A program made the translations under genes and the position numbers. Below, one piece after another: positions 1-52,433 of a stretch of DNA of 64,000 nucleotides; position 1 is the first letter of the stretch, and each line of letters starts with the position of its first letter. Source of the stretch: Ianthella basta (taxonomy: Eukaryota; Porifera; Demospongiae; Verongiida; Ianthellidae); the NCBI GenBank assembly GCA_964019415.1, contig OZ025868.1:1337001-1401000 (forward strand), written 5' to 3'. Below the pieces are notes generated by a model. The model made no database searches. It had not been told where the DNA came from and saw only the letters and a list, made by a program, of their open reading frames with translations.

Positions 1-410
1 TGCTAATGACATAAACAGTTGCATTATCTGGCTAGGTCCATCAAGTGTCATGACTGAGCGGGCCGGGCTGGTTGAATACATCATACACATCACATATGTC
101 AGCCATTTTGAGACTAATTAAGAAATCCCGCTAATAACATAGGAAGGTGGACCACTTGGACGTGTCCACCAAGTTTCATGTCTCAACGAGCTGAGTTGCA
201 TTAATATACAAGATACCACTATGCATCAATATAAATGCACCATACATTAAGTGTTCTCCTATGTGCATTTATATAAGAATTTTGCGGGCTGCTTGTAGAA
301 GAACGAAGACCTAATTAAAAATTCCGTCTCATTTAAAAGTGTTAAAATCTCCCATACTTCAAAGGCACACCTATCACATGTTCGTGAGGGGTGCCTAATC
401 CCCCGGGAAT
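1..410 (+). repeat. Fold-back unit U0, right tail only
   Basis: This matches the last 410 bp of the other units, including the block around gactaattaagaaatcccg and the closing ccccgggaatt. The palindrome and left arm lie before the window. Confidence 0.85.
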
Positions 411-570
411 TATATTATATTATATTATATTATATTATATTATATTATATATTATTTACTTTAGATTAGTGGTGTATATTGTAACTTGCACTGTATATAT
501 TATATTATATTATATTATATTATATTATTTACTTTAGATTAGTGGTGTATATTGTAACTTGCACTGTATT
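411..570. repeat. ATATT microsatellite with two 47-bp spacer motifs
   Basis: ATATT runs surround two copies of a motif starting tttactttagattagtggtg and ending ttgtaacttgcactgtat. The same spacer recurs at 9,770-9,900, 16,120-16,262, 18,362-18,451, 27,128-27,297 and 50,471-50,515. It carries the TGTAACTTGCAC word that is dispersed through the palindrome arms. Confidence 0.85.
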
Positions 571-2272
571 AACCACCACCACCACCACACAGTGCAAGTT
601 ACAATATCGCAGCCACCACCACCTGTGCCAGTAGAGTATCTGTGCTAGTTGGTCATAGAAAAAAAGCACCACTAGTGCAAGTTACAGTAGCCGCCACCAC
701 ATGTGTCAGTAGAGTATCTGCGCTAGTTGGTCATAGAAAAAAAACACCAGTGCAAGTTACAGTGGCACCAGCACCATTCGCACCACCACATGTGCCAGAA
801 AGTAAATGCGCTCAATGGCTGAAGAAAAAGACCACCAGCACAAGTTACAGCCGATCAGAACCTGCACCGCCGCCATTGGAGTGCACGCTGCAGCAAGCAA
901 TTGTAAGCTTGCCTAAGGGCATGCCATTGAATTGAGGGTGCATGGGAAGAAATTCAATGGCATGCCCTTAGGCAAGTTACAATTGCTTGCTGCAGCGTGC
1001 ACTCCAATGGCGGCGGTGCAGGTTCTGATCGGCTGTAACTTGTGCTGGTGGTCTTTTTCTTCAGCCATTGAGCGCATTTACTTTCTGGCACATGTGGTGG
1101 TGCGAATGGTGCTGGTGCCACTGTAACTTGCACTGGTGTTTTTTTTCTATGACCAACTAGCGCAGATACTCTACTGACACATGTGGTGGCGGCTACTGTA
1201 ACTTGCACTAGTGGTGCTTTTTTTCTATGACCAACTAGCACAGATACTCTACTGGCACAGGTGGTGGTGGCTGCGATATTGTAACTTGCACTGTGTGGTG
1301 GTGGTGGTGGTGTTTTTTCTAGAGCAATGGCGGATATACTGAATGCATGCATTGTACTGGCACCATGTGGTGGTGGTGGTGGTGGTGATTTTCATCTAGG
1401 AATGCATGTGGTGGCCATAATATTGTAACTTGCACTGTGTGGTGGTGGTAGTAGTATGTGGTAGCAGCGCCTGATGTGGTGGTCTGTTTTCTTGCAGCTC
1501 TAACACACAATATTATACTGGTGTGCTCATTGCAACTTCCACTGTGGTGGTGGTGATGGCGGTTGTATTTATCTATGTGGTGGTGTAGTAGCTGGATATT
1601 GTGGCTGGATAGTTGTGAGCAAGTGTACATGTTGGTACTGTTCTGCTCCAGCATAGCGGCAAATGCCTAAAAATTGGTGTCAAAATGTGATTGTTCAAAA
1701 CATCGCCTCCATTTGTGACTAATTAAGCAATACTGCTAATGACATGAGCAAATTGGTCATCTAACTTCATCCACTTAGTATCATGACTTAGCAGGGCTGG
1801 GTCGGTAAGATATGCAATGAACCTCATTTTTCTCGGCCATTTTGCAACTAATTAAGAAATCCTGCTAATGACATGAACAGTTGGATTATCTGGCTAGGTC
1901 CATCAAGTGTCATGACTGAGCGGGCCGGGCTGGTTGAATACATCATACACCTCATATATGTCGGCCATTTTGAGACTAATTAAGAAATCCCGCTAATAAC
2001 ATAGGAAGGTGGACCACTTGGATGTGTCCACCAAGTTTCACGTCTCAACGAGCCCAGTTGCATTCATATACAAGATACCACTATGCATCAATATAAATGC
2101 ACCATACATTAAGTGTTATGCTATGCACATTTATATTAGGATTTTGCGGGCTGCTTGTAGAAGAACGAAGACCTAATTAAAAATTCTGCCTCATTTAAAA
2201 GTCTTAAAATCTACCATACTTCAAAGGCACACCTATCACATGTTCGTGAGGGGTGCCTAACCCCCCGGGAAT
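571..2272 (+). repeat. Fold-back unit U1
   Basis: The palindrome centre is near 942, between the mirrored words gggcatgccattgaatt and aattcaatggcatgccc. The left arm (571-934) is the reverse complement of the start of the right arm. Arms are made of a 75-90 bp subrepeat ending in GTGCAAGTTACA, about ten copies in both orientations. A non-palindromic tail (about 1,690-2,272) holds three imperfect repeats of about 115 bp built on ACTAATTAAG and GCTAATGACATGA. Confidence 0.85.
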
Positions 2273-2303
2273 TATATTATATTATATTATATTATATTAT
2301 ATT

Positions 2304-4098
2304 ACCACCACCACCACACAGTGCAAGTTACAATATCGCAGCCACCACCACCTGTGCCAGTAAAGTATCTGTGCTAGTTGGTCATAGAGAAAAAGACCAC
2401 CAGTGCAAGTTACAGTAGCCACCACCACATGTGCCAGTAGAGTATCTGCACTAGTTGGTCATAGAAAAAGACCACCAGTGCAAGTTACAGTGGCACCAGC
2501 ACCATTCGCACCACCACATGTGCCAGAAAGTAAATGCGCTCAATGGCTGAAGAAAAAGACCACCAGCGCAAGTTACAGCTGGTCAGAACCTGCACCGCCA
2601 CCATTGGAGTGCACGCTGCAGCAAGCAAATGTAAGCTTACGTAAGGGCATGCCATTGAATTGAGGGTGCGTGGGAAGAAATTCAATGGCATGCCCTTAGG
2701 CAAGTTACATTTGCTTGCTGCAGCGTGCACTCCAATGGTGGCGGTGCAGGTTCTGACCAGCTGTAACTTGCGCTGGTGGTCTTTTTCTTCAGCCATTGAG
2801 CGCATTTACTTTCTGGCACATGTGGTGGTGCGAATGGTGCTGGTGCCACTGTAACTTGCACTGGTGGTCTTTTTCTATGACCAACTAGTGCAGATACTCT
2901 ACTGGCACATGTGGTGGTGGCTACTGTAACTTGCACTGGTGGTCTTTTTCTCTATGACCAACTAGCACAGATACTTTACTGCCACAGGTGGTGGTGGCTG
3001 CGATATTGTAACTTGCACTGTGTGGTGGTGGTGGTGGTGTTTTTTCTAGAGCAATGGCACATATACTGAATGCATCCATTGTACTGGCACCATGTGGTGG
3101 TGGTGGTGGTCATTTTCATTTAGGAATGCATGTGGTGGCCGTAATATTGTAATTTGCACTGTGTGGTGGTGGTAGTAGTAGTATATAGTAGCAGCGCCTG
3201 ATGTGGTGGTCTGTTTTCTTGCAGCTCTAGCACATAATATTATACTGGTGTGCTCATTGCAACTTCCACTGTGGTGGTGGTGATGGCGGTTGTATTTATC
3301 TATGTGGTGGTGTAGTAGCTGGATATTGTGGCTGGATAGTTGTGAGGAAGTGTACATGTTGGTGCTGCTCTGCTCCAGCATAGCAACAAATGCCTACAAA
3401 TTGGTGTCAAAATGTGATTGTTCAAAACATCGCCTCCATTTTGTGACTAATTAAGCAATACTGCTAATGACATGAGGAAATTGGTCATCTAACTTCATCC
3501 ACTTAGTATCATGACTTAGCAGGGTTGGGTCGGTAAGATATGCATTGAACTTCATTTTTCTCGGCCATTTTGCCACTAATTAAGAAATCCTGCTAATGAC
3601 ATGAACAGTTGCATTATCTGGCTAGGTCCATCAAGTGAAGTGAGGGCTTCTCAGCTGGCTCAGGCATCAGAAAGGGTTGGTTCTCTAATACCAGCTTCAC
3701 AACAGGGCCAACCCTTTCTGAGGTCCATCAAGTGTTATGACTGAGCGGGCCGGGCTGGTTGAATACATCATACACATCACATATGTCGGCCATTTTGAGA
3801 CTAATTAAGAAATCCCGCTAATAACATAGGAAGGTGGACCACTTGGATCTGTCCACCAAGTTTCACGTCTCAACGAGCCAAGTTGCATTCATATACAAGA
3901 TACCACTATGCGTCAATATAAATGCACCATACATTAAGTGTTATGCTATGCACATTTATATTAGGATTTGGCGGGCTGCTTGTAGAAGAACGAAGACCTA
4001 ATTAAAAATTCTGCCTCATTTAAAAGTCTTAAAATCTCCCATACTTCAAAGGCACACCTATCACATGTTCGTGAGGGGTGCCTAACCCCCCGGGAATT
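2304..4098 (+). repeat. Fold-back unit U2 (with 83-bp insertion)
   Basis: Centre near 2,669 with a left arm of about 350 bp. The tail carries an 83-bp insertion at 3,638-3,720 that no other unit has. Confidence 0.85.
3638..3720 (+). mobile_element. Small SINE-like insertion with 14-bp target-site duplication
   Basis: The 83-bp insert interrupts the U2 tail and is flanked by the direct repeat AGGTCCATCAAGTG (3,624-3,637 and 3,721-3,734), present once in the other units. Its first 70 bp nearly match 32,964-33,032. Its end is an inverted copy of its own interior: CAGAAAGGGTTGG inside and CCAACCCTTTCTG at the end, so the copy folds back on itself. Confidence 0.7.
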
Positions 4099-4124
4099 AT
4101 ATTATATTATATTATATTATATTA

Positions 4125-5753
4125 AAAACACCACCACCACCACCACCACACAGTGCAAGTTACAATATCGCAGCCACCACCACCTGTGCCAGTAGAGTAT
4201 CTGTGCTAGTTGGTCATAGAAAAAGACCACCAGTGCAAGTTACAGTGGCACCAGCACCATTCGCACCACCACATGTGCCAGAAAGTAAATGCGCTCAATG
4301 GCTGAAGAAAAAGACCACCAGCGCAAGTTACAGCCGGTCAGAACCTGCACCGCCGCCATTGGAGTGCACGCTGCAGCAAGCAAATGTAAGCTTGCCTAAG
4401 GGCATGCCATTGAATTGAGGGTGCATGGGAAGAAATTCAATGGCATGCCCTTAGGCAAGTTACAATTGCTTGCTGCAGCGTGCACTCCAATGGCGGCGGT
4501 GCAGGTTCTGACCGGCTGTAACTTGCGCTGGTGGTCTTTTTCTTCAGCCATTGAGCGCATTTACTTTCTGGCACATGTGGTGGTGCGAATGGTGCTGGTG
4601 CCACTGTAACTTGCACTGGTGGTCTTTTTCTATGACCAACTAGCGCAGATACTCTACTGACACATGTGGTGGTGGCTACTGTAACTTGCACTGGTGGTGT
4701 TTTTTTCTATGACCAACTAGCACAGATACTCTACTGGCACAGGTGGTGGTGGCTGCGATATTGTAACTTGCACTGTGTGGTGGTGGTGGTGGTGTTTTTT
4801 CTAGAGCAATGGCGGATATACTGAATGCATGCATTGTACTGGCACCATGTGGTGGTGGTGGTGGTGGTCATTTTCATCTAGGAATGCATGTGGTGGCCGT
4901 AATATTGTAACTTGCACTGTGTAGTGGTGGTGGTAGTATGTGGTAGCAGCGCCTGATGTGGTGGTCTGTTTTCTTGCAGCTCTAGCACATAATATTATAC
5001 TGCTGTGCTCATTGCAACTTCCACGGTGGTGGTGGTGATGGCGGTTGTATTTATATATGTGGTGGTGTAGTAGCTGGATATTATGGCTGGATAGTTGTGA
5101 GCAAGTGTACATGTTGGTGCTGCTCCGCTCCAGCATAGCGCCAAATGCCTACAAATTGGTGTCAAAATGTGATTGTTCAAAACATCGCCTCCATTTTGTG
5201 ACTAATTAAGCAATACTGCTAATGACATGAGGAAATTGGTCATCTAACTACATCCACTTAGTATCATGACTTAGCAGGGCTGGGTTGGTAAGATATGCAA
5301 TGAACCTCATTTCCTCGGCCATTTTGCAACTAATTAAGAAATCCTGCTAACGACATGAACAGTTGGATTATCTGGCTAGGTCCATCAAGTGTCATGACTG
5401 AGCGGGCCGGGCTGGTTGAATACATCATACACCTCACATATGTCGGCCATTTTGAGACTAATTAAGAAATCCCACTAATAACATAGGAAGGTGGACCACT
5501 TGGATGTGTCCACCAAGTTTCACGTCTCAACGAGCCCAGTTGCATTAATATACAAGATACCACTATGCATCAATATAAATGCACCATACATTAAGTGTTA
5601 TGCTATGCACATTTATATTAGTATTTTGCGGGCTGCTTGTAGAAGAACGAAGGCCTAATTAAAAATTCTGCCTCATTTAAAAGTCTTAAAATCTCCCATA
5701 CTTCAAAGGCACACCTATCACATGTTCATGAGGGGTGCCTAACCCCCCGGGAA
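4125..5753 (+). repeat. Fold-back unit U3
   Basis: Centre near 4,425. The left arm is short (about 290 bp) and lacks one of the 80-bp subrepeats present in U1. Confidence 0.85.
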
Positions 5754-5789
5754 TTATATTATATTATATTATATTATATTATATTATAT

Positions 5790-7840
5790 ACATGTACACT
5801 TGCTCACAACTATCCAGCCACAATATCCAGCTACTCACCACCACATAGATAAATACAACCGCCATCATCACCACCACAGCGGAAGTTGCAATGAGCACAC
5901 CAGTATAATATTATGTGCCAAGCTGCAAGGAAACAGACCACCACATCAGGTGCTGCTACCACATACTACTACCACCACTACCACACAGTGCAAGTTACAA
6001 TATTACAGCCACCACATGCATTCCTAGATGAAAATGACCACCACCACCACCACATGGTGCCAGTACAATGCATGCATTCAGTATATGCGCCATTGCTCTA
6101 GAAAAAACACCACCACCACCACCACACAGTGCAAGTTACAATATCGCAGCCACCACCACCTGTGCCAGTAGAGTATCTGTGCTAGTTGGTCATAGAAAAA
6201 GACCACCACCAGTGCAAGTTACAGTAGCCACCACCACATGTGTCAGTAGAGTATCTGCGCTGCTGGTCATGGAAAAAGAACACCAGTGCAAGTTACAGTA
6301 GCCACCACCACATGTGCCAGTAGAATATCTGTGCTAGTTGGTAATTGAAAAAGACCACCAGTGCAAGTTACAGTGGCTCCGGGCCAGCACATGCAAGTTA
6401 CAGCTGGTCAGAACCTGCACTGCTGCCATTGTAATGCACGCTGCAGCAAGCAATTGTAAGCTTGCCTAAGGGCATGCCATTGAATTGAGGGTGCATGGGA
6501 AGAAATTCAATGGCATGCCCTTAGGCAAGTTACAATTGCTTGCTGCAGCGTGCATTACAATGGCAGCAGTGCAGGTTCTGACCAGCTGTAACTTGCATGT
6601 GCTGGCCCGGAGCCACTGTAACTTGCACTGGTGGTCTTTTTCAATTACCAACTAGCACAGATATTCTACTGGCACATGTGGTGGTGGCTACTGTAACTTG
6701 CACTGGTGTTCTTTTTCCATGACCAGCAGCGCAGATACTCTACTGACACATGTGGTGGTGGCTACTGTAACTTGCACTGGTGGTGGTCTTTTTCTATGAC
6801 CAACTAGCACAGATACTCTACTGGCACAGGTGGTGGTGGCTGCGATATTGTAACTTGCACTGTGTGGTGGTGGTGGTGGTGTTTTTTCTAGAGCAATGGC
6901 GCATATACTGAATGCATGCATTGTACTGGCACCATGTGGTGGTGGTGGTGGTCATTTTCATCTAGGAATGCATGTGGTGGCTGTAATATTGTAACTTGCA
7001 CTGTGTGGTAGTGGTGGTAGTAGTATGTGGTAGCAGCACCTGATGTGGTGGTCTGTTTCCTTGCAGCTCTGGCACATAATATTATACTGGTGTGCTCATT
7101 GCAACTTCCGCTGTGGTGGTGATGATGGCGGTTGTATTTATCTATGTGGTGGTGAGTAGCTGGATATTGTGGCTGGATAGTTGTGAGCAAGTGTACATGT
7201 TGGTGCTGCTCTGCTCCAGCATAGCGGCAAATGCCTACAAATTGGTGTCAAAATGTGATTGTTCAAAACATCGCCTCCATTTTGTGACTAATTAAGCAAT
7301 ACTGCTAATGACATGAGGAAATTGGTCATCTAACTTCATCCACTTAGTATCATGACTTAGCAGGGCTGGGTCGTTAAGATATGCAATGAACCTCATTTTT
7401 CTCGGCCATTTTGCAACTAATTAAGAAATCCTGCTAATGACATGAACAGTTGGATTATCTGGCTAGGTCCACTAAGTGTCATGACTGAGCGGGCCGGGCT
7501 GGTTGAATACATCATACACCTCACATATGTCGGCCATTTTGAGACTAATTAAGAAATCCCGCTAATAACATAGGAAGGTGGACCACTTGGATGTGTCCAC
7601 CAAGTTTCACGTCTCAACGAGCCAAGTTGCATTCATATACAAGATACCACTATGCATCAATATAAATGCACCATACATTAAGTGTTATGCTATGAACATT
7701 TATATTAGTATTTTGCGGGCTGCTTGTAGAAGAACGAAGACCTAATTAAAAATTCTGCCTCATTTAAAAGTGTTAAAATCTCCCATACTTCAAAGGCACA
7801 CCTATCACATGTTCGTGAGGGGTGCCTAACCCCCCGGGAA
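5790..7840 (+). repeat. Fold-back unit U4, long left arm
   Basis: Centre near 6,495. The left arm extends about 690 bp, so the palindrome spans roughly 5,790-7,200, before the ordinary tail. Confidence 0.85.
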
Positions 7841-7877
7841 TTATATTATATTATATTATATTATATTATATTATATT

Positions 7878-9680
7878 ACCGCCACCACCACCACACTGTG
7901 CAAGTTTCAATGCATGCATTCAGTATATGCGCCATTGCTCTAGAAAAAAACACCACCACCACCACCACCACACAGTGCAAGTTACAATATCGCAGCCACC
8001 ACCACCTGTGTCAGTAGAGTATCTGTGCTAGTTGGTCATAGAAAAAGACTACCACCAGTGCAAGTTACAGTGGCTACCACCACATGTGCCAGTAGAGTAT
8101 CTGTGCTAGTTGGTCATAGAAAAAGACCACCAGTGCAAGTTACAGTGACCCCGGACCAGCACACGCACCATTCGCACCACCACATGTGCCAGAAAGTAAA
8201 TGCGCTCAATGGCTGAAGAAAAAGACCACCAGCGCAAGTTACAGCCGGTCAGAACCTGCACCGCCGCCATTGGAGTGCACGCTGCAGCAAGCAAATGTAA
8301 GCTTGCCTAAGGGCATGCCATTGAATTGAGGGTGCATGGGAAGAAATTCAATGGCATGCCCTTAGGCAAGTTACAATTGCTTGCTGCAGCGTGCACTCCA
8401 ATGGCGGCGGTGCAGGTTCTGACCGGCTGTAACTTGCGCTGGTGGTCTTTTTCTTCAGCCATTGAGCGCATTTACTTTCTGGCACATGTGGTGGTGCGAA
8501 TGGTGCGTGTGCTGGTCCGGGGTCACTGTAACTTGCACTGGTGGTCTTTTTCTATGACCAACTAGCACAGATACTCTACTGGCACATGTGGTGGTAGCCA
8601 CTGTAACTTGCACTGGTGGTAGTCTTTTTCTATGACCAACTAGCACAGATACTCTACTGACACAGGTGGTGGTGGCTGCGATATTGTAACTTGCACTGTG
8701 TGGTGGTGGTGGTGGTGGTGTTTTTTTCTAGAGCAATGGCGCATATACTGAATGCATGCATTGAAACTTGCACAGTGTGGTGGTGGTGGCGGTCATTTTC
8801 ATCTAGGAATGCATGTGGTGGCCGTAATATTGTAACTTGCACTGTGTGGTAGTGGTGGTAGTATGTGGTAGCAGCGCCTGATGTGGTGGTCTGTTTTCTT
8901 GCAGCTCTAGCACATAATATTATACTTGTGTGCTCATTGCAACTTCCACTGTGGTGGTGGTGATGGTGGTTGTATTTATCTATGTGGTGGTGTAGTAGCT
9001 GGATATTGTGGCTGGATAGTTGTGAGCAAGTGTATATGTTGGTGCTGCTCTGCTCCAGCATAGCGACAAATGCCTACAAATTGGTGTCAAAATGTGATTG
9101 TTCAAAACATCGCCTCCATTTTGTGACTAATTAAGCAATACTGCTAATGATATGAGGAAATTGGTGATCTAACTACATCCACTTAGTATCATGACTTAGC
9201 AGGGCTGGGTCAGTAAGATATGCAATGAACCTCATTTTTCTCGGCCATTTTGCGACTAATTAAGAAATCCTGCTAATGACAAGAACAGTTGGATTATCTG
9301 GCTAGGTCCATCAAATGTCATGACTGAGCGGGCCGGGCTGGTTGAATACATCATACACCTCACATATGTCGGCCATTTTGAGACTAATTAAAAAATCCCG
9401 CTAATAACATAGGAAGGTGGACCACTTGGATGTGTCCACCAAGTTTCACGTCTCAACGAGCCTAGTTGCATTCATATACAAGATACCACTATGCATCAAT
9501 ATAAATGCACCATACATTAAGTGTTATGCTATGCACATTTATATTAAGATTTAGCGGGCTGCTTGTAGAAGAACGAAGGCCTAATTAAAAATTCTGCCTC
9601 ATTTAAAAGTCATAAAATCTCCCATACTTCAAAAGCACACCTATCACATGTTCGTGAGGGGTGCCTAACCCCCCGGGAAT
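7878..9680 (+). repeat. Fold-back unit U5
   Basis: Centre near 8,336 with a left arm of about 445 bp. It carries a variant inner block (accccggaccagcacacgc) mirrored on both sides of the centre. Confidence 0.85.
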
Positions 9681-9910
9681 TATATTATATTATATTATAT
9701 TATATTATATTATATTATATTATATTATATTATATTATATTATATTATATTATATTATATTATAATATTTACTTTAGATTAGTGGTGTATATTGTAACTT
9801 GCACTGTATATATTATATTATATTATATTATATTATATTATATTATATTATATTATTTACTTTAGATTAGTGGTGTATATTGTAACTTGCACTGTATATA
9901 TTATATTATA
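9681..9910. repeat. ATATT microsatellite and spacer motifs
   Basis: A long ATATT run with two copies of the 47-bp spacer separates U5 from U6. Confidence 0.85.
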
Positions 9911-12564
9911 GGTGTGCCTTTGAAGTATGGGAGATTTTAAGACTTTTAAATGAGGCAGAATTTATAATTAGGCCTTCGTTCTTCTACAAGCAGCCCGCAA
10001 AATCCTAATATAAATGTGCATAGCATAACACTTAATGTATGGTGCATTTATATTGATGCATAGTGGTATCTTGTATATGAATGCAACTGGGCTCGTTGAG
10101 ACGTGAAACTTGGTGGACACATCCAAGTGGTCCACCTTCCTATGTTATTAGCGGGATTTCTTAATTAGTCTCAAAATGGCCGACATATGTGAGGTGTATG
10201 ATGTATTCAACCAGCCCGGCCCGCTCAGTCATGACACTTGGTGGACCTAGCCAGATAATCCAACTGTTCATGTCATTAGCAGGATTTCTTAATTAGTTGC
10301 AAAATGGCCGAGAAAAATGAGGTTCATTGCATATCTTAACGACCCAGCCCTGCTAAGTCATGATACTAAGTGGATGAAGTTAGATGACCAATTTCCTCAT
10401 GTCATTAGCAGTATTGCTTAATTAGTCACAAAATGGAGGCGATGTTTTGAACAATCACATTTTGACACCAATTTGTAGGCATTTGCCGCTATGCTGGAGC
10501 AGAGCAGCACCAACATGTACACTTGCTCACAACTATCCAGCCACAATATCCAGCTACTCACCACCACATAGATAAATACAACCGCCATCATCACCACCAC
10601 AGCGGAAGTTGCAATGAGCACACCAGTATAATATTATGTGCCAGAGCTGCAAGGAAACAGACCACCCCATCAGGTGCTGCTACCACATACTACTACCACC
10701 ACCACCACACAGTGCAAGTTACAATATTACAGCCACCACATGCATTCCTAGATGAAAATGACCACCACCACCACCACATGGTGCCAGTACAATGCATGCA
10801 TTCAGTATATGCGCCATTGCTCTAGAAAAAACACCACCACCACCACCACACAGTGCAAGTTACAATATCGCAGCCACCACCACCTGTGCCAGTAGAGTAT
10901 CTGTGCTAGTTGGTCATAGAAAAAGACCACCACCAGTGCAAGTTACAGTAGCCACCACCACATGTGTCAGTAGAGTATCTGCGCTAGCTGGTCATGGAAA
11001 AAGACCACCAGTGCAAGTTACAGTAGCCACCACCACATGTGCCAGTAGAATATCTGCGCTAGTTGGTAATTGAAAAAGACCACCAGTGCAAGTTACAGTG
11101 GCTCCGAGCCAGCACATGCAAGTTACAGCTGGTCAGAACCTGCACTGCTGCCATTGTAATGCTCGCTGCAGCAAGCAATTGTAAGCTTGCCTAAGGGCAT
11201 GCCATTGAATTGAGGGTGCATGGGAAGAAATTCAATGGCATGCCCTTAGGCAAGTTACAATTGCTTGCTGCAGCGAGCATTACAATGGCAGCAGTGCAGG
11301 TTCTGACCAGCTGTAACTTGCATGTGCTGGCCCGGAGCCACTGTAACTTGCACTGGTGGTCTTTTTCAATTACCAACTAGCGCAGATATTCTACTGGCAC
11401 ATGTGGTGGTGGCTACTGTAACTTGCACTGGTGGTCTTTTTCTATGATCAACTAGCACAGATACTCTACTGGCACAGGTGGTGGTGGCTACTGTAACTTG
11501 CACTGGTGGTCTTTTTCTATGACCAACTGACGCAGATACTCTACTGGCACAGGTGGTGGTGGCTGTGATATTGTAACTTGCACTGTGTGGTGGTGGTGGC
11601 GGTGGTGATTTTTTCTAGAGCAATGGCGCATATACTGAATGTATGCATTGTAATTTGCACTGTGTGGCGGTGGTGGTGGCAGTCATTTCCATCTAGGAAA
11701 GCATGTGGTGGCCGTAATATTGTAACTTGCACTGTGTGGTGGTGGTAGTAGTATGTGGTAGCAGCGCCTGATGTGGTGGTCTGTTTTCTTGCAGCTCTAG
11801 CACAAAATATGCTACTCATTGCAACTTCCACTGTGGTGGTGGTGATGATGGTTGTATTTATCTATATATGTGGTGGTATAGTAGCTGGATATTGTGGCTG
11901 AATAGTTGTGAGCATGTGTATATGTGGGTGTTGCTCTGCTCCAGCATGGCGGCAAATACCTACAAATTAGTGTCAAAATATGATTGTTCAAAAGGTCGCC
12001 TCCATTTTGTGACTAATTAAGCAATACTGCTAATGACATGAGCAAATGGGCATTCTAACTATGTCCACTTAGTATCACCCCTTAGCGGGCTGGGTTGGTG
12101 GGATATGCAATGAACTTCACTTTTCTCGGCCATTTTGTGACTAATTAAGAAATCCTGTTAATGACATGAACAGTTGAATTATCTGGCTAGGTTCACAAAG
12201 TGTCATGACTGAGCAGGCCTGGCTGATTGAATAAATCATGCACCTCACATATGTCGGCCATTTTGAGACTAATTAAGAAATCCCGCTAATAACATAGGAA
12301 GGTGGACCACTTGGACGTGTCCACCAAGTTTCACGTCTCAACGAGCCGAGTTGCATTAATATACAAAATACCACTATGTATCAATATAAATGCACCATAC
12401 ATTAAGTGTTCTCCTATGTGCATTTATATAAGCATTTTGTGGGCCGCTTGTAGAAGAACGAAGACCTAATTAAAAATTCCGTCTCATTTAAAAGTGTTAA
12501 AATCTCCCATACTTCAAAGCCATACCTAGCACATGTTCATGAGGGCTGCCAAACCACCCGGGAA
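9911..12564 (+). repeat. Fold-back unit U6, near full-length palindrome of about 2.6 kb
   Basis: Here the left arm (9,911-11,210) is the inverse of almost the entire right arm and tail: it begins with the complement of the block that sits near the end of every tail (catacttcaaaggcacacc). Centre near 11,222. This is the longest palindrome in the window and shows that the tail can also be part of the fold-back. Confidence 0.9.
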
Positions 12565-16058: not shown

Positions 16059-16270
16059 ATATTATATTATATTATATTATATTATATTATATTATATTAT
16101 ATTATATTATATTATTTACTTTAGATTAGTGGTGTATATTGTAACTTGCACTGTATATATTATATTATATTATATTATATTATATTATATTATATTATAT
16201 TATATTATATTATATTATTTACTTTAGATTAGTGGTGTATATTGTAACTTGCACTGTATATATTATATTA
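16059..16270. repeat. ATATT microsatellite and spacer motifs
   Basis: Long ATATT runs with two 47-bp spacer copies separate U8 from U9. Confidence 0.85.
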
Positions 16271-18304
16271 GCAGAGCAGCACCAACATGTACACTTGCTC
16301 ACAACTATCCAGCCACAATATCCAGCTACTACACCACCACATAGATAAATACAACCGCCATCACCACCACCACAGTGGAAGTTGCAATGAGCACACCAGT
16401 ATAATATTATGTGCTAGAGCTGCAAGAAAACAGACCACCACATCAGGCGCTGCTACTATATACTACTACTACCACCACCACACAGTGCAAGTTACAATAT
16501 TACGGCCACCACATGCATTCCTAAATGAAAATGACCACCACCACCACCACATGGTGCCAGTACAATGGATGCATTCAGTATATGTGCCATTGCTCTAGAA
16601 AAAACACCACCACCACCACCACACAGTGCAAGTTACAATATCGCAGCCACCACCACCTGTGGCAGTAAAGTATCTGTGCTAGTTGGTCATAGAGAAAAAG
16701 GCCACCAGTGCAAGTTACAGTAGCCACCACCACATGTGCCAGTAGAGTATCTGCACTAGTTGGTCATAGCAAAAGACCACCAGTGCAAGTTACAGTGGCA
16801 CCAGCACCATTCGCACCACCACATGTGCCAGAAAGTAAATGCGCTCAATGGCTGAAGAAAAAGACCACCAGCGCAAGTTACAGCTGGTCAGAACCTGCAC
16901 CGCCACCATTGGAGTGCACGCTGCAGCAAGCAAATGTAAGCTTACCTAAGGGCATGCCATTGAATTGAGGGTGCGTGGGAAGAAATTCAATGGCATGCCC
17001 TTAGGCAAGTTACATTTGCTTGCTGCAGCGTGCACTCCAATGGTGGCGGTGCAGGTTCTGACCAGCTGTAACTTGCGCTGGTGGTCTTTTTCTTCAGCCA
17101 TTGAGCGCATTTACTTTCTGGCACATGTGGTGGTGCGAATGGTGCTGGTGCCACTGTAACTTGCACTGGTGGTCTTTTTCTATGACCAACTAGTGCAGAT
17201 ACTCTACTGGCACATGTGGTGGTGGCTACTGTAACTTGCACTGGTGGCCTTTTTCTCTATGACCAACTAGCACAGATACTTTACTGGCACAGGTGGTGGT
17301 GGCTGCGATATTGTAACTTGCACTGTGTGGTGGTGGTGGTGGTGTTTTTTCTAGAGCAATGGCACATATACTGAATGCATCCATTGTACTGGCACCATGT
17401 GGTGGTGGTGGTGGTCATTTTCATTTAGGAATGCATGTGGTGGCCGTAATATTGTAACTTGCACTGTGTGGTGGTGGTAGTAGTAGTATATAGTAGCAGC
17501 GCCTGATGTGGTGGTCTGTTTTCTTGCAGCTCTAGCACATAATATTATACTGGTGTGCTCATTGCAACTTCCACTGTGGTGGTGGTGATGGCGGTTGTAT
17601 TTATCTATGTGGTGGTGTAGTAGCTGGATATTGTGGCTGGATAGTTGTGAGCAAGTGTACATGTTGGTGCTGCTCTGCTCCAGCATAGCGGCAAATGCCT
17701 ACAAATTGGTGTCAAAATGTGATTGTTCAAAACATCGCCTCCATTTTGTGACTAATTAAGCAATACTGCTAATGACATGAGGAAATTGGTCATCTAACTT
17801 CATCCACTTAGTATCATGACTTAGCAGGGCTGGGTTGGTAAGATATGCATTGAACCTCATTTTTCTCGGCCATTTTGCGACTAATTAAGAAATCCTGCTA
17901 ATGACATGAACAGTTGGATTATCTGGCTAGGTCCATCAAGTGTCATGACTGAGCGGGCCGGGCTGGTTGAATACATCATACACATCACATATGTCGGCCA
18001 TTTTGAGACTAATTAAGAAATCCCGCTCATGACATAGGAAGGTGGACCACTTGGATCTGTCCACCAAGTTTCACGTCTCAACGAGCCAAGTTGCATTCAT
18101 ATACAAGATACCACTATGCATCAATATAAATGCACCATACATTAAGTGTTATGCTATGCACATTTATATTAGGATTTGGCGGGCTGCTTGTAGAAGAACG
18201 AAGACCTAATTAAAAATTCTGCCTCATTTAAAAGTCTTAAAATCTCCCATACTTCAAAGGCACACCTATCACATGTTCGTGAGGGGTGCCTAACCCCCCG
18301 GGAA
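16271..18304 (+). repeat. Fold-back unit U9, long left arm
   Basis: Centre near 16,975. The left arm of about 695 bp starts at gcagagcagcaccaacatgt, the complement of the junction between palindrome and tail in other units. Confidence 0.85.
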
Positions 18305-18452
18305 TTATATTATATTATATTATATTATATTATATTATATTATATTATATTATATTATATTATTTACTTTAGATTAGTGGTGTATATTGTAACTTGCACT
18401 GTATATATTATTTACTTTAGATTAGTGGTGTATATTGTAACTTGCACTGTAT
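18305..18452. repeat. ATATT microsatellite and spacer motifs
   Basis: An ATATT run and two 47-bp spacer copies. The second spacer abuts the truncated left arm of U10 directly. Confidence 0.85.
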
Positions 18453-19863
18453 CCACCAGCGCAAGTTACAGCTGGTCAGAACCTGCACCGCCACCATTGG
18501 AGTGCACGCTGCAGCAAGCAAATGTAAGCTTACCTAAGGGCATGCCATTGAATTGAGGGTGCGTGGGAAGAAATTCAATGGCATGCCCTTAGGCAAGTTA
18601 CATTTGCTTGCTGCAGCGTGCACTCCAATGGTGGCGGTGCAGGTTCTGACCAGCTGTAACTTGCGCTGGTGGTCTTTTTCTTCAGCCATTGAGCGCATTT
18701 ACTTTCTGGCACATGTGGTGGTGCGAATGGTGCTGGTGCCACTGTAACTTGCACTGGTGGTCTTTTTCTATGACCAACTAGCGCAGATACTCTACTGGCA
18801 CATGTGGTGGTGGCTACTGTAACTTGCACTGGTGGTCTTTTTCTCTATGACCAACTAGCACAGATACTTTACTGCCACAGGTGGTGGTGGCTGCGATATT
18901 GTAACTTGCACTGTGTGGTGGTGGTGGTGGTGTTTTTTACTAGAGCAATGGCACATATACTGAATGCATCCATTGTACTGGCACCATGTGGTGGTGGTGG
19001 TGGTCATTTTCATTTAGGAATGCATGTGGTGGCCGTAATATTGTAACTTGCACTGTGTGGTGGTGGTAGTAGTAGTATATAGTAGCAGCGCCTGATGTGG
19101 TGGTCTGTTTTCTTGCAGCTCTAGCACATAATATTATACTGGTGTGCTCATTGCAACTTCCACTGTGGTGGTGGTGATGGCGGTTGTATTTATCTATGTG
19201 GTGGTGTAGTAGCTGGATATTGTGGCTGGATAGTTGTGAGCAAGTGTACATGTTGGTGCTGCTCTGCTCCAGCATAGCGGCAAATGCCTACAAATTGGTG
19301 TCAAAATGTGATTGTTCAAAACATCACCTCCATTTTGTGACTAATTAAGCAATACTGCTAATGACATGAGGAAATTGGTCATCTAACTTCATCCACTTAG
19401 TATCATGACTTAGCATGGCTGGGTTGGTAAGATATGCATTGAACCTCATTTTTCTCGGCCATTTTGCCACTAATTAAGAAATCCTGCTAATGACATGAAC
19501 AGTTGCATTATCTGGCTAGGTGCATCAAGTGTCATGACTGAGCGGGCCGGGCTGGTTGAATACATCATACACCTCACATATGTCGGCCATTTTGAGACTA
19601 ATTAAGAAATCCCGCTAATAACATAGGTAGGTGGACCACTTGGATGTGTCCACCAAGTTTCACGTCTCAACGAGCCCAGTTGCATTCATATACAAGATAC
19701 CACTATGCATCAATATAAATGCACCATACATTAAGTGTTATGCTATGCACATTCATATTAGGATTTGGCGGGCTGCTTGTAGAAGAACGAAGACCTAATT
19801 AAAAATTCTGCCTCATTTAAAAGTCTTAAAATCTCCCATACTTCAAAGGCACACCTATCACAT
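18453..19863 (+). repeat. Fold-back unit U10, left arm reduced to about 100 bp
   Basis: Centre near 18,561. Only about 100 bp of left arm remain, the shortest seen. The tail stops at cacacctatcacat (19,863) and joins U11 with no microsatellite. Confidence 0.85.
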
Positions 19864-21868
19864 ACAACTATCCAGCCACAATATCCGGCTACTACACCAC
19901 CACATAGATAAATACAACCGCCATCACCACCACCACAGTGGAAGTTGCAATGAGCACACCAGTATAATATTATGTGCTAGAGCTGCAAGAAAACAGACCA
20001 CCACATCAGGCGCTGCTACTATATACTACTACTACCACCACCACACAGTGCAAGTTACAATATTACGGCCACCACATGCATTCCTAAATGAAAATGACCA
20101 CCACCACCACCACATGGTGCCAGTACAATGGATGCATTCAGTATATGTGCCATTGCTCTAGAAAAAACACCACCACCACCACCACACAGTGCAAGTTACA
20201 ATATCGCAGCCACCACCACCTGTGGCAGTAAAGTATCTGTGCTAGTTGGTCATAGAGAAAAAGACCACCAGTGCAAGTTACAGTAGCCACCACCACATGT
20301 GCCAGTAGAGTATCTGCACTAGTTGGTCATAGAAAAAGACCACCAGTGCAAGTTACAGTGGCACCAGCACCATTCGCACCACCACATGTGCCAGAAAGTA
20401 AATGCGCTCAATGGCTGAAGAAAAAGACCACCAGCGCAAGTTACAGCTGGTCAGAACCTGCACCGCCACCATTGGAGTGCACGCTGCAGCAAGCAAATGT
20501 AAGCTTGCCTAAGGGCATGCCATTGAATTGAGGGTGCATGGGAAGAAATTCAATGGCATGCCCTTAGGCAAGTTACAATTGCTTGCTGCAGCGTGCACTC
20601 CAATGGCGGCGGTGCAGGTTCTGATCGGCTGTAACTTGTGCTGGTGGTCTTTTTCTTCAGCCATTGAGCGCATTTACTTTCTGGCACATGTGGTGGTGCG
20701 AATGGTGCTGGTGCCACTGTAACTTGCACTGGTGTTTTTTTTCTATGACCAACTAGCGCAGATACTCTACTGACACATGTGGTGGCGGCTACTGTAACTT
20801 GCACTAGTGGTGCTTTTATTCTATGACCAACTAGCACAGATACTCTACTGGCACAGGTGGTGGTGGCTGCGATATTGTAACTTGCACTGTGTGGTGGTGG
20901 TGGTGGTGTTTTTTCTAGAGCAATGGCGGATATACTGAATGCATGCATTGTACTGGCACCATGTGGTGGTGGTGGTGGTGGTGATTTTCATCTAGGAATG
21001 CATGTGGTGGCCATAATATTGTAACTTGCACTGTGTGGTGGTGGTAGTAGTATGTGGTAGCAGCGCCTGATGTGGTGGTCTGTTTTCTTGCAGCTCTAAC
21101 GCACAATATTATACTGGTGTGCTCATTGCAACTTCCACTGTGGTGGTGGTGATGGCGGTTGTATTTATCTATGTGGTGGTGTAGTAGCTGGATATTGTGG
21201 CTGGATAGTTGTGAGCAAGTGTACATGTTGGTACTGCTCTGCTCCAGCATAGCGGCAAATGCCTAAAAATTGGTGTCAAAATGTGATTGTTCAAAACATC
21301 GCCTCCATTTGTGACTAATTAAGCAATACTGCTAATGACATGAGCAAATTGGTCATCTAACTACATCCACTTAGTATCGTGACTTAGCAGGGCTGGGTCG
21401 GTAAGATATGCAATGAACCTCATTTTTCTCGGCCATTTTGCAACTAATTAAGAAATCCTGCTAATGACATGAACAGTTGGATTATCTGGCTAGGTCCATC
21501 AAGTGTCATGACTGAGCGGGCCGGGCTGGTTGAATACATCATACACCTCATATATGTCGGCCATTTTGAGACTAATTAAGAAATCCCGCTAATAACATAG
21601 GAAGGTGGACCACTTGGATGTGTCCACCAAGTTTCACGTCTCAACGAGCCCAGTTGCATTAATATACAAGATACCACTATGCATCAATATAAATGCACCA
21701 TACATTAAGTGTTATGCTATGCACATTTATATTAGGATTTTGCGGGCTGCTTGTAGAAGAACGAAGACCTAATTAAAAATTCTGCCTCATTTAAAAGTCT
21801 TAAAATCTCCCATACTTCAAAGGCACACCTATCACATGTTCGTGAGGGGTGCCTAACCCCCCGGGAAT
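19864..21868 (+). repeat. Fold-back unit U11, long left arm
   Basis: Centre near 20,539 with a left arm of about 670 bp. The left arm has U2/U7-type sequence, whereas the right arm matches U1 (gctgatcggctgtaacttgt side). The arms therefore differ in subtype, consistent with recombination at the centre. Confidence 0.8.
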
Positions 21869-21904
21869 TATATTATATTATATTATATTATATTATATTA
21901 TATT

Positions 21905-23600
21905 ACCACCACCACCACACAGTGCAAGTTACAATATCGCAGCCACCACCACCTGTGCCAGTAGAGTATCTGTGCTAGTTGGTCATAGAAAAAAAGCACC
22001 ACCAGTGCAAGTTACAGTAGCCACCACCACATGTGTCAGTAGAGTATCTGCGCTAGTTGGTCATAGAAAAAGAACACCAGTGCAAGTTACAGTGGCACCA
22101 GCACCATTCGCACCACCACATGTGCCAGAAAGTAAATGCGCTCAATGGCTGAAGAAAAAGACCACCAGCACAAGTTACAGCCGATCAGAACCTGCACCGC
22201 CGCCATTGGAGTGCACGCTGCAGCAAGCAAATGTAAGCTTGCCTAAGGGCATGCCATTGAATTGGGGTGCATTGGAAGAAATTCAATGGCATGCCCTTAG
22301 GCAAGTTACAATTGCTTGCTGCAGCGTGCACTCCAATGGCGGCGGTGCAGGTTCTGATCGGCTGTAACTTGTGCTGGTGGTCTTTTTCTTCAGCCATTGA
22401 GCGCATTTACTTTCTGGCACATGTGGTGGTGCGAATGGTGCTGGTGCCACTGTAACTTGCACTGGTGTTCTTTTTCTATGACCAACTAGCGCAGATACTC
22501 TACTGACACATGTGGTGGTGGCTACTGTAACTTGCACTGGTGGTGCTTTTTTTCTATGACCAACTAGCACAGATACTCTACTGGCACAGGTGGTGGTGGC
22601 TGCGATATTGTAACTTGCACTGTGTGGTGGTGGTGGTGGTGTTTTTTCTAGAGCAATGGCGGATATACTGAATGCATGCATTGTACTGGCACCATGTGGT
22701 GGTGGTGGTGGTGGTGATTTTCATCTAGGAATGCATGTGGTGGCCGTAATATTGTAACTTGCACTGTGTGGTGGTGGTAGTAGTATGTGGTAGCAGCGCC
22801 TGATGTGGTGGTCTGTTTTCTTGCAGCTCTAACACACAATATTATACTGGTGTGCTCATTGCAACTTCCACTGTGGTGGTGGTGATGGCGGTTGTATTTA
22901 TCTATGTGGTGGTGTAGTAGCTGGATATTGTGGCTGGATAGTTGTGAGCAAGTGTACATGTTGGTACTGCTCTGCTCCAGCATAGCGGCAAATGCCTAAA
23001 AATTGGTGTCAAAATGTGATTGTTCAAAACATCGCCTCCATTTGTGACTAATTAAGCAATACTGCTAATGACATGAGGAAATTGGTCATCTAACTACATC
23101 CACTTAGTATCATGACTTAGCAGGGCTGGGTCGGTAAGATATGCAATGAACCTCATTTTTCTCGGCCATTTTGCAACTAATTAAGAAATCCTGCTAATGA
23201 CATGAACAGTTGGATTATCTGGCTAGGTCCATCAAGTGTCATGACTGAGCGGGCCGGGCTGGTTGAATACATCATACACCTCATATATGTCGGCCATTTT
23301 GAGACTAATTAAGAAATCCCGCTAATAACATAGGAAGGTGGACCACTTGGATGTGTCCACCAAGTTTCACGTCTCAACGAGCCCAGTTGCATTCATATAC
23401 AAGATACCACTATGCATCAATATAAATGCACCATACATTAAGTGTTATGCTATGCACATTTATATTAGGATTTTGCGGGCTGCTTGTAGAAGAACGAAGA
23501 CCTAATTAAAAATTCTGCCTCATTTAAAAGTCTTAAAATCTCCCATACTTCAAAGGCACACCTATCACATGTTCGTGAGGGGTGCCTAACCCCCCGGGAA
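21905..23600 (+). repeat. Fold-back unit U12
   Basis: Centre near 22,270 with a loop variant (ggggtgcattggaag). All landmarks recur exactly 1,733 bp downstream in U13. Confidence 0.85.
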
Positions 23601-23637
23601 TTATATTATATTATATTATATTATATTATATTATATT

Positions 23638-25333
23638 ACCACCACCACCACACAGTGCAAGTTACAATATCGCAGCCACCACCACCTGTGCCAGTAGAGT
23701 ATCTGTGCTAGTTGGTCATAGAAAAAAAGCACCACCAGTGCAAGTTACAGTAGCCACCACCACATGTGTCAGTAGAGTATCTGCGCTAGTTGGTCATAGA
23801 AAAAGAACACCAGTGCAAGTTACAGTGGCACCAGCACCATTCGCACCACCACATGTGCCAGAAAGTAAATGCGCTCAATGGCTGAAGAAAAAGACCACCA
23901 GCACAAGTTACAGCCGATCAGAACCTGCACCGCCGCCATTGGAGTGCACGCTGCAGCAAGCAAATGTAAGCTTGCCTAAGGGCATGCCATTGAATTGGGG
24001 TGCATTGGAAGAAATTCAATGGCATGCCCTTAGGCAAGTTACAATTGCTTGCTGCAGCGTGCACTCCAATGGCGGCGGTGCAGGTTCTGATCGGCTGTAA
24101 CTTGTGCTGGTGGTCTTTTTCTTCAGCCATTGAGCGCATTTACTTTCTGGCACATGTGGTGGTGCGAATGGTGCTGGTGCCACTGTAACTTGCACTGGTG
24201 TTCTTTTTCTATGACCAACTAGCGCAGATACTCTACTGACACATGTGGTGGTGGCTACTGTAACTTGCACTGGTGGTGCTTTTTTTCTATGACCAACTAG
24301 CACAGATACTCTACTGGCACAGGTGGTGGTGGCTGCGATATTGTAACTTGCACTGTGTGGTGGTGGTGGTGGTGTTTTTTCTAGAGCAATGGCGGATATA
24401 CTGAATGCATGCATTGTACTGGCACCATGTGGTGGTGGTGGTGGTGGTGATTTTCATCTAGGAATGCATGTGGTGGCCGTAATATTGTAACTTGCACTGT
24501 GTGGTGGTGGTAGTAGTATGTGGTAGCAGCGCCTGATGTGGTGGTCTGTTTTCTTGCAGCTCTAACACACAATATTATACTGGTGTGCTCATTGCAACTT
24601 CCACTGTGGTGGTGGTGATGGCGGTTGTATTTATCTATGTGGTGGTGTAGTAGCTGGATATTGTGGCTGGATAGTTGTGAGCAAGTGTACATGTTGGTAC
24701 TGCTCTGCTCCAGCATAGCGGCAAATGCCTAAAAATTGGTGTCAAAATGTGATTGTTCAAAACATCGCCTCCATTTGTGACTAATTAAGCAATACTGCTA
24801 ATGACATGAGGAAATTGGTCATCTAACTACATCCACTTAGTATCATGACTTAGCAGGGCTGGGTCGGTAAGATATGCAATGAACCTCATTTTTCTCGGCC
24901 ATTTTGCAACTAATTAAGAAATCCTGCTAATGACATGAACAGTTGGATTATCTGGCTAGGTCCATCAAGTGTCATGACTGAGCGGGCCGGGCTGGTTGAA
25001 TACATCATACACCTCATATATGTCGGCCATTTTGAGACTAATTAAGAAATTCCGCTTATAACATAGGAAGGTGGACCACTTGGATGTGTCCACCAAGTTT
25101 CACTTCTCAACGAGCCAAGTTGCATTAATATACAAGATACCACTATGCATCAATATAAATGCACCATACATTAAGTGTTATGCTATGCACATTTATATTA
25201 GGATTTTGCGGGCTGCTTGTAGAAGAACGAAGGCCTAATTAAAAATTCTGCCTCATTTAAAAGTCTTAAAATCTTCCATACTTCAAAGGCACACCTATCA
25301 CATGTTCGTGAGGGGTGCCTAACCCCCCGGGAA
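23638..25333 (+). repeat. Fold-back unit U13
   Basis: Centre near 24,003. Near-identical tandem sister of U12 with no net indel across the unit, including the ATATT run. Confidence 0.85.
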
Positions 25334-25365
25334 TTATATTATATTATATTATATTATATTATATT

Positions 25366-27064
25366 ACCACCACCACCACACAGTGCAAGTTACAATATCG
25401 CAGCCACCACCACCTGTGCCAGTAAAGTATCTGTGCTAGTTGGTCATAGAGAAAAAGACCACCAGTGCAAGTTACAGTAGCCACCACCACATGTGCCAGT
25501 AGAGTATCTGCACTAGTTGGTCATAGAAAAAGACCACCAGTGCAAGTTACAGTGGCACCAGCACCATTCGCACCACCACATGTGCCAGAAAGTAAATGCG
25601 CTCAATGGCTGAAGAAAAAGACCACCAGCGCAAGTTACAGCTGGTCAGAACCTGCACCGCCACCATTGGAGTGCACGCTGCAGCAAGCAAATGTAAGCTT
25701 ACCTAAGGGCATGCCATTGAATTGAGGGTGCGTGGGAAGAAATTCAATGGCATGCCCTTAGGCAAGTTACATTTGCTTGCTGCAGCGTGCACTCCAATGG
25801 TGGCGGTGCAGGTTCTGACCAGCTGTAACTTGCGCTGGTGGTCTTTTTCTTCAGCCATTGAGCGCATTTACTTTCTGGCACATGTGGTGGTGCGAATGGT
25901 GCTGGTGCCACTGTAACTTGCACTGGTGGTCTTTTTCTATGACCAACTAGTGCAGATACTCTACTGGCACATGTGGTGGTGGCTACTGTAACTTGCACTG
26001 GTGGTCTTTTTCTCTATGACCAACTAGCACAGATACTTTACTGGCACAGGTGGTGGTGGCTGCGATATTGTAACTTGCACTGTGTGGTGGTGGTGGTGGT
26101 GGTGTTTTTTCTAGAGCAATGGCACATATACTGAATGCATCCATTGTACTGGCACCATGTGGTGGTGGTGGTGGTCATTTTCATTTAGGAATGCATGTGG
26201 TGGCCGTAATATTGTAATTTGCACTGTGTGGTGGTGGTAGTAGTAGTATATAGTAGCAGCGCCTGATGTGGTGGTCTGTTTTCTTGCAGCTCTAGCACAT
26301 AATATTATACTGGTGTGCTCATTGCAACTTCCACTGTGGTGGTGGTGATGGCGGTTGTATTTATCTATGTGGTGGTGTAGTAGCTGGATATTGTGGCTGG
26401 ATAGTTGTGAGCAAGTGTACATGTTGGTGCTGCTCTGCTCCAGCATAGCAACAAATGCCTACAAATTGGTGTCAAAATGTGATTGTTCAAAACATTGCCT
26501 CCATTTTGTGACTAGTTAAGCAATACTGCTAATGACATGAGGAAATTGGTCATCTAACTTCATCCACTTAGTATCATGACTTAGCAGGGCTGGGTTGGTA
26601 AGATATGCATTGAACCTCATTTTTCTCGGCCATTTTGCCACTAATTAAGAAATCCTGCTAATGACATGAACAGTTGCATTATCTGGCTAGGTCCATCAAG
26701 TGTCATGACTGAGCGGGCCGGGCTGGTTGAATACATCATACACCTCACATATGTCGGCCATTTTGAGACTAATTAAGAAATCCCGCTAATAACATAGGAA
26801 GGTGGACCACTTGGATCTGTCCACCAAGTTTCACGTCTCAACGAGCCAAGTTGCATTCATATACAAGATACCACTATGCATCAATATAAATGCACCATAC
26901 ATTAAGTGTTATGCTATGCACATTTATATTAGGATTTGGCGGGCTGCTTGTAAAAGAACGAAGACCTAATTAAAAATTCTGCCTCATTTAAAAGTGTTAA
27001 AATCTCCCATACTTCAAAGGCACACCTATCACATGTTTGTGAGGCGTGCCTAACCCCCCGGGAA
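25366..27064 (+). repeat. Fold-back unit U14, last of the array
   Basis: Centre near 25,733. It is of the U2 subtype (gctggtcagaacctgcaccg side). Confidence 0.85.
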
Positions 27065-27298
27065 TTATATTATATTATATTATATTATATTATATTATAT
27101 TATATTATATTATTTGTAACTTGCACTGTATTTACTTTAGATTAGTGGTGTATATTGTATCTTGCACTGTATATATTATATTATATTATTTACTTTAGAT
27201 TAGTGGTGTATATTGTAACTTGCACTGTATATATTATATTATATTATATTATTTACTTTAGATTAGTGGTGCATATTGTAACTTGCACTGTATATACG
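27065..27298. repeat. Terminal spacer block of the array
   Basis: ATATT runs and three 47-bp spacer copies, plus a partial one, lead into the E terminal block at 27,299. Confidence 0.8.
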
Positions 27299-27343
27299 AA
27301 CATGAAGCCATACGAAGACCTAAATCTGAAAACAATATAGGGG
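27299..27343 (+). other. Right terminus of E1 (hairpin truncated)
   Basis: Matches the right terminal block of the other two E elements up to aacaatataggggc. The hairpin found there is missing, and aaaaatg follows. From here to 27,556 there is no gene. Alignment with the intron upstream of exon 53,166 begins near 27,430. Confidence 0.6.

Positions 27344-52347: not shown

Positions 52348-52433
<86 letters not shown>

Follow-up and report, generated by a model that had tools for sequence, protein, structure and literature searches.

The array, the single copy and the unit

A 64,000-nucleotide window of the genome of the sponge Ianthella basta (GCA_964019415.1; C1:1337001-1401000, where C1 is contig OZ025868.1 of the 209-Mb, 96-contig genome) carries a tandem array of large palindromic units at its left and, further right, a single copy of the same unit. 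Units were mapped with a 1414-bp reference that runs from palindrome centre to tail and was taken from the single copy (window 49107-50520). By this mapping the array spans C1:1318908-1364296, ending at window 27296, and holds 24 palindrome centres, 14 of them inside the window, together with one centreless unit that is cut off within its right arm. Twenty-three centres share one orientation; the array starts about 18 kb left of the window, where the first unit is inverted and stands head-to-head with the second over a (TA)n run. An earlier note, made from the sequence of the window alone, had described 14 units with a common centre and several classes of left-arm length. Both descriptions were borne out, with left arms from 102 to 1303 bp, and the array proved to be wider than the window.

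Each unit reads as a left arm, a loop, and a right arm that continues into a body, followed by (ATATT)n and a 3' tail (TTTACTTTAGATTAGTGGTG...CACTG, then TA). The statement in the same note that all units share one tail end holds for the body but not for the tail itself, which is missing from 15 of the 22 intervals separating neighbouring forward centres; where it is missing, the next left arm is mostly joined to the (ATATT)n of the preceding unit. The left arms of U1 to U14 measure about 362, 358, 273-299, 697, 453, 1303, 364, 361, 697, 102, 666, 359, 359 and 358 bp. The 14 centred units fill window 572-27134. Before them comes the end of one more unit, whose centre lies outside the window, and after them short tail repeats continue to 27296:

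1-569, plus strand: last part of a unit whose centre, C1:1336071, lies a little outside the left edge of the window; it comprises the 3' end of the body, (ATATT)n and two tails (from reference mapping and sequence)
572-2305, plus: U1; left arm 572-933, loop, right arm and body 936-2305; sole arm difference is the extra base at position 26
2305-4124, plus: U2; left arm 2305-2661, body 2664-4124, small insertion at about 3638-3720
4118-5782, plus: U3; left arm about 4118-4416, body 4419-5782; mismatched arms, probable recombinant
5790-7869, plus: U4; left arm 5790-6486 (697 bp, zero substitutions against its own right arm), body 6489-7869
7878-9901, plus: U5; left arm 7878-8327, body 8330-9722, two tail pieces reaching 9901
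9909-12607, plus: U6; left arm 9909-11211 (the longest), body 11214-12607; other units' right arms fit better, probable recombinant
12612-14353, plus: U7; left arm 12612-12972, body 12975-14353
14358-16263, plus: U8; left arm 14358-14718, body and tail 14721-16160, additional tail piece to 16263
16270-18452, plus: U9; left arm 16270-16966, body and tail 16969-18408, additional tail piece to 18452
18453-19863, plus: U10; left arm 18453-18554 (the shortest in the window), body 18557-19863
19864-21896, plus: U11; left arm 19864-20529, body 20532-21896; apparent arm-swapped recombinant
21906-23629, plus: U12; left arm 21906-22263, body 22265-23629; arms identical to those of U13 over the compared stretch
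23639-25367, plus: U13; left arm 23639-23996, body 23998-25367
25367-27296, plus: U14; left arm 25367-25723, body and tail 25726-27134, two tail pieces to 27296; adjoins the flanking host repeat
48126-50520, plus: single copy; left arm 48126-49105 (980 bp), loop 49106-49121, body and tail to 50520; within the (TA)n of a dispersed host repeat
49068-49158, plus: hairpin of the single copy, the proposed encoded snap-back primer (stem about 37 bp, 16-nt loop)
54977-55596, minus: related host-repeat copy whose (TA)n lacks a unit, read from its flank match as the empty paralogous site of the L047 unit

A palindrome scan that allowed spacers of up to 11 bases found nothing, since the loop is longer. 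The arms contain internal subrepeats of 73-78 bp. Four open reading frames (ORFs) of at least 110 aa, counted from stop to stop, lie over the single copy, all within the palindrome and mirrored across the strands; judged by eye, none of its ORFs encodes a reverse transcriptase or GIY-YIG endonuclease. The insertion in U2 (window 3638-3720) is about 83 bp long, with inverted ends and a repeated 14-base flank (aggtccatcaagtg), and is MITE-like.

The family is dispersed. A first look at the genome gave 1,053 candidates with the 3' body and 839 with the palindrome core, of which 40 each were scored and listed. Further arrays and single copies occupy 17 more loci (L034-L050). Single copies occur at window 48126-50520, L035 (two), L037, L047 and L048, and the family is thus not confined to tandem arrays. 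Some units truncated in the right arm, with starts for example at reference 262, 309 or 488, show no palindrome. At L042:3790-6676, three consecutive units are cut inside the right arm (reference 309, 488 and 488) and are palindrome-free; at L039:4721-4732, two units of different subfamilies are fused head-to-head right at their loops with no copied arm.

Left arms beyond a conserved stem

Left arms were compared with right arms across 19 stretches (the array, the single copy and L034-L050) that contain 79 loops. The 66 units in which the best arm alignment begins at the loop were kept, and the 13 whose unconstrained alignment was placed elsewhere were dropped; realigned outward from the loop, these 13 comprise eleven left arms of 32-379 bp and two of less than 10 (L039:4725 and L048:4136). 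Only three positions carry left/right changes common to many units, namely 26 (65 of 66 units), 32 (28 units) and 23 (20 units). All other changes are common to at most two units each, and every other position is affected in at most four of the 66.

Site-by-site comparison of the variable sites in the first 220 arm bases separated two zones. Position 23 is C in all 66 right arms and in 46 left arms, with T in the other 20; at position 26, 64 of 65 left arms carry one additional base; and position 32 is A in 39 and T in 26 right arms versus T in 53 and A in 12 left arms. Sites 23 and 26 are therefore variable in the left arm only, and site 32 is partly so. At variable sites from 52 to 161, the limit of the alignment, the left arm has the allele of its own right arm in nearly all units, and the alleles that it tracks include an insertion of about 30 bases (12 units) and the absence of a 9-base block (12 units); at the worst of these sites it follows its own right arm in 8 of the 10 units with the minor allele. 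Shared left differences at 23, 26 and 32 only, combined with self-match further out, show that the left arm inherits its first 32 bases or more with the element and that the rest is a copy of the unit's own right arm in most units.

Rates of change point the same way. No left/right difference occurs past position 33 in 31 of 66 units (whole arm, final 6 bases ignored), and in a selected set of 55 units (left arm 60 bp or longer, no more than 10 differences) the arms differ by 5.5% per bp at positions 1-33 versus 0.29% beyond, while the right arms of different units differ by a median of 5.3% (substitutions, positions 36-370, 2,145 pairs). For the 59 units whose left arm reaches 150 bp or more, the match to the own right arm is strictly best in 29 and ties for best in 19, giving 48 of 59; after thinning to 33 dissimilar units it is best or tied in 28. 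The mean own-arm score of 0.971 lies above the maximum of 0.817 reached in 10,000 permutations of the 59 units; for the thinned set the figures are 0.964 and 0.808. In other words, left arms do not match the right arms of other units better throughout, an outcome that the earlier note had named as fatal to its reading. Its claim that every left arm is an inverted copy of the adjoining right arm must be narrowed, since among 13 window units tested (the short-armed U10 excluded) the own right arm is best or tied best in nine; U2 (by one substitution), U3, U6 and U11 match the right arm of another unit better.

Left-arm length varies widely even where right arms are near-identical. Nineteen units form a group in which right arms diverge by no more than 1% (single linkage, recombinants kept in); their left arms measure 76, 99, 190, 193, 240 and 311 bp, nine at 351-388 bp, and 426, 435, 509 and 696 bp. 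Taken together, the comparisons show that most left arms, beyond the stem, are inverted copies, of variable length, of the right arm of the same unit, and it is very probable that a self-copying step from that right arm produced them.

The loop-proximal segment behaves differently. Only 1 of 38 right-arm sites is variable at positions 14-51, versus 104 of 249 at positions 52-300 (79 rows; positions 1-13 lie partly within the search motif and were not counted). Near-minimal left arms are found at L045:3946, where 38 bp fold into a long stem with a 17-nt loop, and at L040:7619 (37 bp). By these comparisons the loop-proximal stem is inherited with the element, and we infer that the conserved hairpin would form the 5' end of an RNA template. 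Rfam at gathering thresholds gave zero matches over the window. A permissive scan of the single copy gave mir-7883 as its best match, on the hairpin (E 6.4e-05, below the gathering score), and no hammerhead in the single copy up to E 10.

Joints, target sites and Penelope elements

The left arms of the 66 units join (ATATT)n in 38 cases, a tail end in 13, (TA)n in 5, other sequence in 9 and a locus edge in 1, so that 56 joints involve an AT-rich simple repeat or a tail end, in agreement with the rejoining at a microsatellite proposed from the window. Fifty of these 56 left arms start with an A at the joint, a base that also continues the flank (expected fraction 0.31, binomial p 1.4e-19); the left arm is thus mostly joined to TA-rich microsatellite with a one-base overlap. 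Reference mapping showed one fixed end, the 3' end, and variable 5' ends, with the tail itself absent from many array units. In the single copies inspected the two tips differ, the left tip being a variable point in the arm and the right tip the tail.

At nine of the 19 stretches (the array, the single copy, L034, L035, L037, L039, L044, L047 and L050), a unit abuts one dispersed repeat family at its (TA)n. In many other stretches the array end lies outside the stretch, and one L035 unit and the L048 unit sit outside the host repeat. The window contains one related repeat (55596-54977) that matches the flanks of the L047 unit (left 98.9% over 88 bp, right 94.6% over 260 bp) and reads (TA)n-GCGGCGGA-(TA)n at the position of that unit. 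In two divergent neighbouring pairs, at the array start and in L044, the left arms are separated by a (TA)n run, the pattern expected of two insertions into a single TA run. If later units entered the (ATATT)n of earlier ones and so extended the array head-to-tail, the joints and the stray 75-bp tail pieces would be explained. The unit is a dispersed inserting element and not a satellite in origin.

Candidate enzymes are present in the same genome, which has 55 GIY-YIG endonuclease matches. Search with one Penelope protein gave 82 listed matches (79 of 1,430 candidates scored). Reverse transcriptase and GIY-YIG domains were confirmed in L051 and L054; a search with the L054 protein returned Penelope-type domains, and PDB holds no sequence relative of it. 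Eighteen pairs less than 3 kb apart occur among the 82 listed matches: 14 are head-to-head, none is tail-to-tail and four run in the same direction, three of these four being fragments of one protein. Five Penelope loci were fetched whole. Four of them, picked as head-to-head pairs, are fold-backs: the arms are 100% identical in two (1,554 bp and 1,019 bp) and 99.6% identical in a third (1,413 bp), and in the fourth, with arms of about 1,890 bp, identity is 99.6% for the palindrome as a whole and 100% for 1,853 bp of each arm. Copies of the same Penelope family are about 99% identical to one another. In the fifth locus, L055, the only inverted piece is 93 bp long. Each of the four is flanked by a direct repeat, read as 8-13 bp. 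A further pair, from another Penelope family, has a near-perfect central palindrome with ends 100% identical over 307 bp (the middle lay outside the comparison), and the centre of L059 has inverted arms of 295 bp (99.3%). The same head-to-head arrangement with a junction palindrome is present in L051-L054 and L056-L058. Among loci chosen for their arrangement, self-identical fold-backs thus appear common for the Penelope elements of this genome. On one side but not the other, next to the direct repeat, the L051-L054 fold-backs also extend further at the 3' end, by about 30-40 bp.

A hammerhead ribozyme is frequent in the terminal repeat of Penelope-like elements. Permissive Rfam scans found none inside the Penelope copies of L051-L055, so that its absence from the unit does not discriminate; a hammerhead-like motif seen by pattern in L052, L054 and L055 was dropped, as Rfam makes no call there. 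The permissive scans (single copy, L051, L052-L055 and L058) gave mostly microRNA-hairpin models below gathering scores. L058:494-538 (minus strand) holds a type I hammerhead above the Rfam gathering score, outside the fold-back arm.

Other features of the window surround the array. A second reverse-transcriptase-bearing element lies immediately to its right (27773-30558, minus strand), and window 34001-38000 has an extreme strand asymmetry (GC skew about -0.5) over minus-strand ORFs, one of them with a reverse transcriptase domain. From their translations, Ig, FN3 and collagen-like exons surround the array; Ig/FN3-like exon regions recur about 18.6 kb apart (38610-47384 and 51642-63765), with the single palindrome copy between them.

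Mechanism, alternatives and known systems

We consider it probable that the units are insertions of a non-autonomous, Penelope-mobilized retroelement with an encoded snap-back hairpin. The element would be about 1.45 kb long and is apparently non-coding, starting with the hairpin (stem of about 33 to about 51 nt, loop of 16-17 nt) and ending in (ATATT)n, a 40-nt tail and TA. In the proposed mechanism, the 3' tail primes at a nicked (TA)n or (ATATT)n and cDNA synthesis runs to the 5' hairpin of the template, where the 3' end of the cDNA would fold on the hairpin and prime synthesis back along itself. The growing end would halt at a variable point and be joined to the upstream side of the target. 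Later units could enter the (ATATT)n or TA of earlier ones to give same-orientation arrays, with unequal exchange afterwards duplicating and shuffling units. Snap-back synthesis over a variable distance had already been suggested in the earlier note; the site test, the own-arm preference and the spread of lengths support it, with the refinement that an encoded hairpin would make the fold. The assignment of the enzyme to the GIY-YIG Penelope-type reverse transcriptases is less secure, but still the likelier choice, and is made because Penelope copies here also form self-identical head-to-head fold-backs.

Several observations weigh against this retroelement reading. Eleven of the 59 left arms fit the right arm of some other unit better, three of them by one substitution (including U2); among the others are apparent recombinants such as U11, U6, U3 and L034:1286, whose left arms match clearly better elsewhere. 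Inspected insertions lie mostly in TA repeats, where target duplications stay invisible. The 16 tails for 24 centres in the array fall below the expectation of simple nested insertion, which calls for later exchange or some other route. Most of the fetched Penelope loci were picked for being head-to-head pairs, and their fold-backs have arms that reach the 3' end on both sides and variable fold points, in contrast to the fixed fold point and short-stopping left arms of the family. Finally, no autonomous element with the family's tail or hairpin was found: nine Penelope stretches (L051-L059) from seven loci showed no meaningful similarity, a comparison that left most of the 82 listed matches and the LINE 3' ends outside.

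Snap-back at the DNA level, in which a broken or resected end folds on the hairpin and is copied by host polymerase as in fold-back double-strand break repair, would explain the inherited stem, the self-copied arms and the one-base joints equally well, and short inverted templated insertions have been reported at yeast breaks (PMC11724301). We nevertheless regard this route as unlikely. Dispersed single copies in (TA)n, differing left-arm lengths and one related empty repeat indicate that the units move and keep one fixed end; right-arm-truncated units without a palindrome are expected if copying ended before the hairpin was reached; and the copied stretch extends to about 980 bp, versus mostly 5-34 bp in that yeast report.

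Palindrome arms can undergo gene conversion, and some units are clear recombinants, so that one ancestral full palindrome, shortened by deletions and kept alike by conversion, could be considered; the earlier note had listed simple deletion of this kind as an outcome that would overturn it. The data give this little probability. The position 26 difference persists in 65 of 66 units although more distal sites are homogeneous, common differences are limited to positions 23, 26 and 32, and many left-arm lengths accompany near-identical right arms. Recombinants also remain unconverted, as in U11, whose arms have 27 mismatches over 666 bp, which speaks against fast arm-to-arm conversion. Conversion would have to spare the first 33 bp and act after each deletion, whereas snap-back requires one step.

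A rolling-circle element of the Helitron or Helentron type, read in the opposite direction and self-primed by the 3' hairpin of the strand, is equally improbable. Helitrons have a short subterminal hairpin near the 3' end, and the terminal stem of at least 33 bp is unlike that general feature, against which it was set rather than against actual Helitron ends; TA-microsatellite targets and a variable hairpin-side end also fit less well. This possibility draws on 49 Helitron-type protein matches in the genome and on hairpins near the 3' end as a Helitron feature, also mentioned in PMC4778049. A foldback DNA transposon of the classical kind (FB, Galileo or MULE), whose long terminal inverted repeats differ in length, would account for the long inverted arms and internal 73-78-bp subrepeats, but is contradicted by the unlike tips of the single copies inspected and is very improbable.

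We offer a broader proposal tentatively: a retroelement class that encodes a conserved 5' hairpin as a dedicated self-primer, with second-strand priming built in. Every genomic unit would then record one snap-back event, its left arm giving the copied length. Dozens of units in one genome allow the inherited primer stem to be separated from the self-copied arm site by site, and they show how copied lengths and joints are distributed; this opens the self-priming model to direct in vitro tests. This bears on how Penelope-type elements complete insertion and why their copies are so often head-to-head, and suggests a possible route by which a mobile element builds long, satellite-like palindromic arrays.

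No description of this build was found in the open-access literature, where searches gave only the Penelope papers and the yeast fold-back insertions; the earlier suggestion that the arrangement is undescribed thus holds for the family, but not for head-to-head Penelope copies with junction palindromes, which are in print. Retrozyme mobilization is presumed to occur in trans, and giant palindromes are not a known feature of retrozymes. Like the family, retrozymes and other short tandem non-autonomous retroelements (PMC7229834) are non-coding and both tandem and dispersed, but retrozymes carry hammerheads and none was found in the single copy. Foldback elements such as FB, Galileo and FARE share long inverted arms, subrepeats and unequal arm lengths, and differ from the family in that it has unlike tips and a single fixed end. 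LINE 5' inversion by twin priming also places an inverted 5' segment in a target-primed insertion; it inverts one 5' segment, whereas here two copies of the segment exist and form an inverted duplication whose centre is fixed.

GIY-YIG Penelope-like elements come nearest. Rotifer copies lie head-to-head with junction palindromes that are interpreted as self-priming, at AT-rich simple targets (PMC3846280), and for a lizard Penelope protein, cutting and extension of both target strands in vitro are reported, with AT-rich targets proposed (PMC11167929). Shared with these systems are head-to-head inverted partial copies, a junction palindrome, AT-rich simple targets, microhomology at the 5' joint, and tandem or partial-tandem arrays. 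Unlike them, the family shows no reverse transcriptase or endonuclease ORF and has no sequence in common with the fetched Penelope stretches; its fold point is a fixed, encoded hairpin, and its left arms end before the 3' end is reached. Self-priming by Penelope elements is therefore already in print; new here is a non-coding element that would use a conserved encoded snap-back hairpin to build palindromic arrays.

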